From NCBI GenBank assembly GCA_007118095.1, contig SKSF01000076.1, positions 1-60,892 of the forward strand: a DNA stretch of 60,892 bases, given 5' to 3'. Made by a program: the position numbers and the translations under genes. The notes beneath the pieces were generated by a model that was not told where the DNA came from, made no database searches, and saw only the letters and a program-made list of their open reading frames with translations. Origin of the DNA: Dehalococcoidia bacterium (GTDB lineage: Bacteria > Chloroflexota > Dehalococcoidia > Tepidiformales > Tepidiformaceae). This document shows, one piece after another, positions 2,592 through 19,278 of the stretch (position 1 is the stretch's first letter; the number at the start of each line of letters is the position of its first letter).

Positions 2592-3065
2592 TCAACCCTT
2601 CGTACAGGACAGCACCGGGTCGTAGTCGGGCAGCTCAATGATCTTTTCCGCAGGCTGGATCCACGCGATCTTGCCGTCCTTCCCGACGACAATGACGACG
2701 CGGTTCGCGACGCCGCGTCCCTCAACCAGCACGCCGTACTTCTTCGCCGTTTCTCCCTGCGGGTTCGCGTCACTCAGGATGGGATAGTCCACTCCCAGGT
2801 GCTCTTTCCATGCCTGCTGTGCCCAGGACCCGTCCGTTGAGATAACGACCGGGATGGCGCCCTGCGACTCGAATTCCGCGCGCTTCTCCTCGATCACGGG
2901 CAGATGGTTGCTGCACACCGGCGAAAACGCGGCCGGCACAAAGTTCAGGATGACGGCGTTCTTTCCGCGATAGTCGCTGAGCTTGAACTTGTCGCCGGTG
3001 GTACTCGCGGGGAGTTCAAAATCCGGCGCTTCGTCACCAACCTTCAGCGTTGTTGTTTCAGCCAT
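2592..3065 (-). CDS. Peroxiredoxin (AhpC/TSA, Cys form)
   Basis: A 157-residue thiol peroxidase reducing H2O2 and organic peroxides. The active-site segment PAAFSPVC places the peroxidatic cysteine at residue 51. A second cysteine near the C-terminus (LSC, about 154) could be a resolving residue. The ATG at 3065 is chosen because AAGAGGTGACC lies directly upstream; the longer frame begins in this ribosome site. It is a useful internal comparison for the second peroxiredoxin at 17521, which has UGA at the aligned position. Convergent with the ADH and followed by the shared hairpin. Confidence 0.93.
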   Translation of the reverse strand: MAETTTLKVGDEAPDFELPASTTGDKFKLSDYRGKNAVILNFVPAAFSPVCSNHLPVIEEKRAEFESQGAIPVVISTDGSWAQQAWKEHLGVDYPILSDANPQGETAKKYGVLVEGRGVANRVVIVVGKDGKIAWIQPAEKIIELPDYDPVLSCTKG

Positions 3066-16660: not shown

Positions 16661-17467
16661 ATGGCATACGAAGCGATCCGCTACGACGTCGACCAGGGCG
16701 TCGCGATTATCACGTTGAACAAACCCGAGCGCCTGAACGCGTTCGACGATGAAATGCTCGAGGAGTGGCACGATGCCGTTCAGCAGGCCGACCGCGACGC
16801 TTCGGTGCGTGCGGTCGTCGTAACCGGCGCGGGCCGTGGGTTCTGCAGTGGTATGAACGTCGCAGCCGAAGCGCAGGGCGAAGGCGTGCTCCAGTCCAAC
16901 GCCACGGTTGCCGAACGGCGCCACAGCCTTCGCAATAGCGTCCACCCTATCCCGCGGGCCATCATCCAGCTCGAGAAACCGTATATCGCGGCGGTCAACG
17001 GCGCCGCGGTCGGCGCCGGCATGGACATGGCCAGCATGGCCGATATCCGCTTTTGCAGCTCCACCGCCCGCTTCGCCATGAGCTACGTGCGCATGGGCCT
17101 CATCCCGGGCGACGGGGGCTGCTGGACACTTCCGCGCATTGTGGGCTCGGCGAAGGCCCTCGAGCTCATCTGGAGCGGGCGCCTCTTCGGCGCGGACGAA
17201 GCCCTCGAAATGGGCTACGTCTCCGCGGTGTACGAACCGGACGAGCTCATGCCCCGCGTGCTGGAATTCGCACAACAGCTCGCGCGGGGCCCGGCCACCG
17301 CCATCCAGCTTTCGAAGAAGCTCGTCTACCGGTCGCAGGACATGCCCTTCGACGAACACCTGGATATGGCACAGATGGCGATGTTCGTCGCGCAGACCAC
17401 CGAGGATGCAAAAGAAGGGCCGCGCGCCTTCGTCGAAAAGCGCGAGCCCGAATTCAAGGGACATTGA
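16661..17467 (+). CDS. Enoyl-CoA hydratase/isomerase (crotonase) family protein
   Basis: A 268-residue crotonase-fold enzyme acting on acyl-CoA thioesters. The oxyanion-hole segments are present (GRGFCSGMN about 59-66; NGAAVGAG about 113-120). The two catalytic glutamates of classical enoyl-CoA hydratase are not: aligned positions carry Asp122 (GMDMASMADI) and Tyr142 (AMSYVRMGLIPGDGG), while Asp151 follows the PG turn. The reaction may be an isomerisation or another crotonase-type step, not simple hydration. AGGAG is located 6 nt before the ATG. Single gene; the neighbours suggest acyl-CoA catabolism. Confidence 0.88.
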   Translation: MAYEAIRYDVDQGVAIITLNKPERLNAFDDEMLEEWHDAVQQADRDASVRAVVVTGAGRGFCSGMNVAAEAQGEGVLQSNATVAERRHSLRNSVHPIPRAIIQLEKPYIAAVNGAAVGAGMDMASMADIRFCSSTARFAMSYVRMGLIPGDGGCWTLPRIVGSAKALELIWSGRLFGADEALEMGYVSAVYEPDELMPRVLEFAQQLARGPATAIQLSKKLVYRSQDMPFDEHLDMAQMAMFVAQTTEDAKEGPRAFVEKREPEFKGH

Positions 17468-17520: not shown

Positions 17521-17988
17521 ATGACACTTGAAGTTGGGCAACCAGCCCCTGACTTTAGCCTTCGCGACCGCGATCGTCAGAAGGTCACACCCGAGTCCCA
17601 CCCCGGGAAGAATCTCGTCGTGGCCTTCTATGCGCTCGCCTTCACCGGTGGTTGAGAATCGGAGATGACCGCCTTTCGGACGCACACCGATGCGTTCGAA
17701 AGGGCCAACGCCCAGGTCCTGGGCGTCAGTGTTGACTCCTTCGCCGCGGCCGGGAAGTTCCAGGATGAGCTCGGGCTCGAATTTCCGCTGCTCAGCGACT
17801 TTCCGAAAAACCAGGCCGGGCGCGATTTCGGCGTCTATAACGAAGCCGCGGGCGTCCACAACCGCGTCACCTTCGTCATCGACAGGGATCGCGTGATCCG
17901 TGCCGTGCACGACGACCCGCGCGATTTCGAGTCGCACCCGCGCGCGGCGCTCGATGCGCTCCGGGAGCTGGGCGAAAAGGTCGACTAG
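17521..17988 (+). CDS. Peroxiredoxin with in-frame UGA (probable selenoprotein)
   Basis: A continuous 156-codon frame encoding an AhpE-like peroxiredoxin, interrupted only by TGA at 17653-17655 (codon 45). Upstream is MTLEVGQPAPDFSLRDRDRQ and LVVAFYALAFTGG; downstream is ESEMTAFRTH through a complete peroxiredoxin body (VLGVSVDSFAAAGKF, FPLLSDF, RVTFVIDRD). The TGA aligns exactly with the peroxidatic cysteine (ALAFTGG-x-ESEM against PAAFSPVC in the Cys paralogue at 2592-3065), so selenocysteine is the natural reading. A 13-bp hairpin begins 16 nt after the TGA (see 17672-17703). The protein would be 155 residues with Sec45. The alternatives, a pseudogene or a sequencing error, would have to hit the catalytic codon by chance. 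Confidence 0.85.
17672..17703 (+). promoter_or_regulatory. Candidate bacterial SECIS hairpin
   Basis: Arms 17672-17684 (CCTTTCGGACGCA) and 17691-17703 (TGCGTTCGAAAGG) pair over 13 positions with one G-U, closing a 6-nt loop CACCGA. The loop lies about 29 nt after the UGA, within the known bacterial range. Its G is at loop position 5, not in the first two positions of the usual consensus. Confidence 0.6.
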
Positions 17989-18108: not shown

Positions 18109-19278
18109 ATGGATTTCCACGACGCCCCCGAACATGCTGCCTTCCGGCAGGAACTGCGCGACTTCCTCGCTGCCGAACTGCCTGCAGACTGGAACATGCG
18201 GAACGACCGCGACCACATCTCCCCGGAAGACGCCGAATTCACGCAGCGCTTCCGCAAGAAGCTCGCCGAGCGTGGCTGGCTCACCATGGGCTGGCCCGAG
18301 GATTTCGGCGGCGCCGGCGCAACCTACATGACTCAGACCGTTTACATGGAGGAAATGAGCAGCGCGGGAGCCCCCGGCGCCTATGACCAGGGCGTCTGGC
18401 TCGCTGCCCCGGCGCTCATGATGCACGGCACGCAGGAGCAGCAGGAGCGCTGGCTTCCCGATATCCGGGTCGCCGGTTCCCAGTGGTGCCAGCTCTTCAG
18501 CGAACCCGAAGCAGGGTCAGACCTGGCCTCGCTGCAGACCCGCGCTGTCCGCGACGGCGACGAGTACATCGTGAACGGGCAGAAGATCTGGACCAGCGGC
18601 GCGACGGATGCCGACTGGGGCATCCTCCTCGCCCGGACCGATCCTGAAGCGCCCAAGCATCGCGGTATCAGCTATTTCCTGCTCGACATGAAGACGCCCG
18701 GTGTCACGGTCCGCCCGCTCATCAACATGATGGGCAGTGATCACTTCTGCGAAGTCTTCCTCGAAGATGTGCGCGTGCCTGTTGATTGCCGCATCGGCGA
18801 AGAAAACCGCGGCTGGTACATCGCGACCACCACGCTCGACCAGGAGCGCAGCTCGATTAACCGTATCGTCATGACGCGGTCCACCCTGTACGCCCTCGTG
18901 GACTACGTGCGCGAGACATCCGCGCTCCGGCAGCGTCCGGAGATCCGGAACGAGCTCGCCGACCGCGCCATCGATTTTGAGCTGGGCCGCTGGCTTTGCT
19001 ATCGCGTGGCCGAGATGCAGAGCAAAGGGGTCGTGCCCAACTACGAAGCGTCCATCTCGAAAGTCTTCGGCACCGAGCTCCAGCGCCAGATGGGCATCAC
19101 TGGCATCCGGGTTGCCGGTATGCCGGGCCAGGTCGAGCCGCCATCGAAGTGGGCGCCGCTGAAGGGCCGGCTGGAGCGCTGGGCGCTTGCCGCAAACAGC
19201 TACACCATCGCCGGGGGGACGAGTGAAGTGAACCGGAACATCATCGCGACCCGCGGCCTCGGCCTCCCGCGAGGATAG
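18109..19278 (+). CDS. Acyl-CoA dehydrogenase
   Basis: A 389-residue FAD-dependent acyl-CoA dehydrogenase, introducing an alpha-beta double bond into acyl-CoA and passing electrons to ETF. Visible signatures are the N-terminal helical domain (FRQELRDFLAAELP), the FAD/substrate motif QLFSEPEAGSDLASLQTRA, NGQKIWTSGA, the mid-domain EVFLEDVRVP, and the C-terminal IAGGTSEVNRNIIATRGLGLPRG. The catalytic glutamate is not at the MCAD C-terminal position (the motif reads AGGTSE), so the base probably lies elsewhere, as in the isovaleryl type. The ATG has TGGAG 7-8 nt upstream. It stands apart from the second ACAD at 23784. Confidence 0.94.
   Translation: MDFHDAPEHAAFRQELRDFLAAELPADWNMRNDRDHISPEDAEFTQRFRKKLAERGWLTMGWPEDFGGAGATYMTQTVYMEEMSSAGAPGAYDQGVWLAAPALMMHGTQEQQERWLPDIRVAGSQWCQLFSEPEAGSDLASLQTRAVRDGDEYIVNGQKIWTSGATDADWGILLARTDPEAPKHRGISYFLLDMKTPGVTVRPLINMMGSDHFCEVFLEDVRVPVDCRIGEENRGWYIATTTLDQERSSINRIVMTRSTLYALVDYVRETSALRQRPEIRNELADRAIDFELGRWLCYRVAEMQSKGVVPNYEASISKVFGTELQRQMGITGIRVAGMPGQVEPPSKWAPLKGRLERWALAANSYTIAGGTSEVNRNIIATRGLGLPRG

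Follow-up and report, generated by a model that had tools for sequence, protein, structure and literature searches.

Peroxiredoxins that carry selenocysteine (Sec) in a TxxU motif were already listed in 2006 (PMC1794560) and appear again in later reviews (PMC9312934, PMC13188914), PrxU of Eubacterium acidaminophilum being one example. The Prx-like UxxC and UGC-containing Prx-like selenoproteins (PMC9312934) are also of the thioredoxin fold, and their Sec belongs to a redox motif of two residues. AhpE of M. tuberculosis (Rv2238c), a 1-Cys peroxiredoxin, prefers peroxynitrite and fatty-acid hydroperoxides, and has mycothiol and mycoredoxin-1 as its reductants (PMC4360819). An AhpE-type Sec peroxiredoxin was not found in a literature search that had most subscription journals outside its reach.

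The locus described here lies in a window of 60,892 nucleotides, meaning the whole stretch of DNA that was analysed, from a Dehalococcoidia genome (contig SKSF01000076.1); its features are collected in Table 1. The first-pass annotation had recognised a full peroxiredoxin frame broken only by a TGA, and the translation (MTLEVGQ...FYALAFTGG*ESEM...EKVD*, asterisks marking stops) has that TGA as its sole internal stop, ahead of a terminal TAG at 17986. It had also placed the TGA on the catalytic cysteine by alignment with a Cys peroxiredoxin of the same window carrying PAAFSPVC at residue 51. This paralogue was located on the minus strand, and the placement holds against AhpE, whose peroxidatic Cys45 aligns with the TGA, residue 45 of the frame.

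Table 1. Features of the peroxiredoxin locus and its surroundings, in window coordinates
Feature	Coordinates	Strand	Remarks
Predicted Sec-containing AhpE-like peroxiredoxin CDS	17521..17988	+	155 aa + TAG, 0 cysteine
In-frame UGA, predicted selenocysteine 45, peroxidatic position	17653..17655	+	
Predicted bacterial SECIS hairpin	17672..17703	+	13 bp, 17672-17684 with 17691-17703; 6-nt loop; within CDS
Paralogous Cys peroxiredoxin	2592..3065	-	VPAAFSPVC ending at Cys51; alignment partner of the first-pass annotation
Enoyl-CoA hydratase (crotonase-like), upstream neighbour	16661..17467	+	tblastn synteny; name read from sequence
Acyl-CoA dehydrogenase-like, downstream neighbour	18109..19278	+	tblastn synteny; name read from sequence

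The Pfam AhpC-TSA domain matches residues 5-128, straight across the TGA (E 2.3e-33), and AhpE is the closest solved relative (E about 1e-26). An AlphaFold2 model with Cys substituted for Sec (pLDDT 95.6) has M. tuberculosis AhpE as its best PDB matches, with a TM of about 0.9. At 38-40% identity the two proteins share the fold, the catalytic position, Thr42, the catalytic Arg and the lack of a resolving Cys, only the peroxidatic residue being present; they differ in that the window protein has a predicted Sec for Cys and Ala38 for Pro. As AhpE falls outside the window's Sec clade in the tree, the protein is termed AhpE-like and not an AhpE orthologue. The absence of cysteine extends to nearly all its family members. 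With PrxU it shares the AhpC/TSA domain, the TxxU motif and the predicted Sec at the peroxidatic position; unlike PrxU, it is AhpE-like and Cys-free, and it scores 68.3 bits against the NCBIfam PrxU equivalog (NF040737), far under the curated cut-off of 270. No NCBIfam model reached its cut-off for this protein. From the UxxC and UGC types, which resemble it in being thioredoxin-fold selenoproteins, it is set apart by its lone Sec. Sec peroxiredoxins as a class are already known, and the window gene adds an AhpE-like family that lies outside the NCBIfam PrxU model.

Among near relatives in public genome contigs (64-70% identity, mostly titled Dehalococcoidia, Chloroflexi or Tepidiformaceae), 11 of 11 have TGA at the same codon. 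A scan of 393 genomes of the class gave 89 matches at 1e-25 or better. A TGA interrupts 80 of these, and all the TGA homologues fetched carry it at the window's Sec column, which excludes chance and bears out the earlier view that a chance mutation or sequencing error was improbable here. Close relatives had been named as the place to look for TGC, TGT or another sense codon; they have TGA instead, including a genome of the same genus (G265). Two more fetched matches from outside the class have TGA at the Sec column, as does one further sequence from a different family. The proposed U/C exchange is also seen, a minority of homologues among the more distant relatives having Cys (TGT/TGC) at this column, so that the UGA stands in frame at a column where homologues have a redox Cys. 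Three such Cys rows (L067, L068 and L069) nest within Sec clades in the tree, and SelA was not detected in their genomes. A further row, L073 (G031:C54), has TGG (Trp) at the Sec column within a degenerate motif, FADDW, in a genome where SelA was not detected; this protein is possibly inactive or repurposed.

The coding sequence continues to be constrained beyond the TGA. None of the 69 TGA rows (some genomes contribute two) has another stop within the next 100 codons, and dN/dS is alike on the two sides, at 0.05-0.23 3' of the TGA and 0-0.19 5' of it. Purifying selection thus acts on the codons 3' of the TGA.

The genome from which the window comes (98% complete; 3.2 Mb in 227 contigs) contains the full Sec machinery, all four genes that the first-pass annotation had wished to see sought, selA, selB, selD and tRNA-Sec, being found. 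The tRNA-Sec has a UCA (TCA) anticodon and scores 72.6 bits, above the Rfam cut-off; SelB and SelD score 329 and 356 bits, respectively; and SelA is present as two contig-edge pieces that jointly cover the profile nearly whole. Of the scanned genomes with the TGA form, 72 of 80 have a detected SelA, against three of nine among those with a non-TGA form (relatedness ignored, Fisher p 3e-4). Seven of the eight TGA-form genomes without SelA are at most 81% complete. Of 13 family genomes without the gene, nine also lack SelA, and in four family genomes SelA is present and no copy of this peroxiredoxin was detected.

Family searches for other selenoproteins of the same genome yielded three further redox or selenium genes with an in-frame TGA. 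SelD itself (L032, G000:C48:19752-20681) has one at locus position 1531 in the motif GGUASK, and is probably also a selenoprotein. A second TGA-interrupted AhpC/TSA protein (L112, G000:C102:26726-27025), with the motif RHFGUMFC, is likely a Prx-like UxxC selenoprotein on the evidence of that motif. The third, a TlpA/thioredoxin-like protein (L110, G000:C214:11965-12300) with the TGA in WASWUGC, is possibly a member of the UGC-containing Prx-like selenoprotein family. In the window itself, a mechanical search for TGA-joined frames was uninformative at this G+C content.

Immediately past the UGA lies a candidate SECIS element. Its stem is perfect over 13 bp (-22.9 kcal/mol) and its first base is 16 nt past the UGA. 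Stability was assessed over the region +15 to +57 as a per-sequence z against synonymous (codon-preserving) shuffles; the mean was -3.01 in 23 family members, 91% of which were at p<=0.05, -1.79 in the other Sec members (n=33) and -0.3 in Cys homologues (n=10), and the family mean at seven other gene positions, used as controls, was between -0.62 and +0.81. The register and bulge of the hairpin vary among genera, so that RNAalifold returned a weak consensus for the 57-nt alignment taken whole, and the shuffle z-scores and a pair count on a named structure were therefore used. In the 23 family sequences, 88% of cells are paired, with a sharp drop when the structure is slid, and 12 cells show double-sided compensatory changes (shuffled mean 3.4, with none of 500 shuffles as high); the structure counted was defined after the folds had been viewed, a bias towards success that the slid and shuffled controls lessen and do not remove.

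An Rfam search gave no SECIS match. The published bSECIS model (PMC13188914) specifies a loop of 3-9 nt, a stem of 4-16 bp, a loop 16-37 nt away and an MFE of at most -7.5, and also asks for a G in the first two loop positions. The window hairpin, with a UGA-to-loop distance of 29 nt, agrees with three of the four constraints and departs from the loop-G constraint, its loop being CACCGA. A subset of selenoprotein genes also fails the model (PMC13188914), so the loop G is no strict requirement for a selenoprotein. The Cys (TGT) row L067 (G344:C12), from a genome in which SelA was not detected, still has a strong hairpin where the SECIS would lie (z -2.38), which may be a fossil SECIS; the remaining Cys rows that sit within Sec clades have no strong hairpin.

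The active site is conserved with one exception. Sec45 and Arg115 are invariant in the alignment and Thr42 is nearly so, and the T/SxxC(U) motif is present; residue 38 (17632-17634), the Pro that opens the PxxxT/SxxC motif, is Ala in the window protein. Since the domain, the fold and the other active-site residues all agree, the peroxiredoxin assignment is kept despite Ala38. All 21 Cys rows keep this Pro, whereas 26 of the 60 Sec rows have Ala, Val, Leu, Ile or Arg in its place (Fisher p 8e-5, ignoring relatedness). The tree implies about 11 such changes; when Pro was set against Sec in a phylogenetic sign test, the result was not significant, there being too few independent U/C contrasts. 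The confinement of Pro loss to Sec forms may be new, and is offered as a lead only.

Taken with the machinery, the conserved TGA and the hairpin with its compensatory changes, the original suggestion of a probable selenoprotein can be put more strongly: we are highly confident, on sequence evidence, that this is a functional selenoprotein gene, its UGA being read as Sec through SelB, tRNA-Sec and the hairpin to give a 1-Sec AhpE-like peroxiredoxin. What can be read from the DNA directly is the catalytic-column UGA and its conservation, together with the Sec machinery, the hairpin and the selection; from these we infer Sec insertion itself, peroxidase activity and the electron donor. The product is most likely a cysteine-free peroxide reductase in need of an external thiol partner. 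In the proposed mechanism, the UGA at 17653 would be decoded as Sec by SelB and tRNA-Sec, directed by the hairpin, and Sec45, with Thr42 and Arg115, would attack a hydroperoxide and be converted to a selenenic acid. As the protein has no cysteine, there is no in-chain resolving partner and an external reductant is needed; for the selenenic acid this would be a thiol or a redoxin, of the glutaredoxin/mycoredoxin or thioredoxin type. That an external thiol system would complete the cycle is suggested by analogy with AhpE, and two glutaredoxin-family genes are present in the genome.

A different function for the same Sec protein is the alternative that survives best. The enzyme could be chiefly a redox sensor or a relay, or its substrate could be one particular hydroperoxide tied to the fatty-acid-oxidation genes on either side, a proposal that concerns function only and overlaps with the peroxide reductase reading. 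Synteny with the enoyl-CoA hydratase-like and acyl-CoA dehydrogenase-like genes, found by tblastn in much of the family, speaks for it, as does the substrate preference of M. tuberculosis AhpE (PMC4360819), but the conserved T42, U45 and R115 fit a general peroxidase equally well, and we regard it as rather unlikely. Given the flanking genes of fatty-acid-oxidation type, a role of the reductase against hydroperoxides from fatty-acid oxidation is possible, if speculative.

Decoding of the UGA as Cys, Trp or Gly, by a reassigned code or a suppressor tRNA, would equally leave the peroxiredoxin frame open, but is very improbable. The gene next door, the enoyl-CoA hydratase-like gene upstream, ends in a normal TGA stop (17465-17467), a complete Sec system, tRNA-Sec(UCA) included, is encoded in the genome, Cys at the Sec column is encoded by TGC/TGT, mostly where SelA was not detected, and a stable hairpin follows the UGA; reassignment was rejected on these grounds. 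Least credible of all is a pseudogene, in which TGC or TGT for the catalytic Cys would recently have mutated to TGA, or an error of sequencing. TGA is one substitution from a Cys codon and is the sole stop in the frame, but dozens of the fetched homologues, some with no more than about 40% identity, have the same TGA, selection persists 3' of it and the genome encodes the Sec machinery; this explanation was rejected on the conservation of the TGA across independent genomes.

Extending the Sec reading to the class, a Dehalococcoidia-wide AhpE-like Sec subfamily may be envisaged, in which Sec frees the enzyme from the near-universal Pro and the SECIS works without a loop guanine, a proposal that we advance tentatively and with some doubt. 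Under standard annotation, this gene and its relatives would probably be split or truncated. The Sec peroxiredoxin is widely retained in Dehalococcoidia, its TGA forms occurring mostly where SelA is detected. The variable proline provides a natural test of the effect of Sec on the peroxiredoxin active site, and with Sec/Cys pairs present in related genomes, the advantage of selenium can be tested directly.
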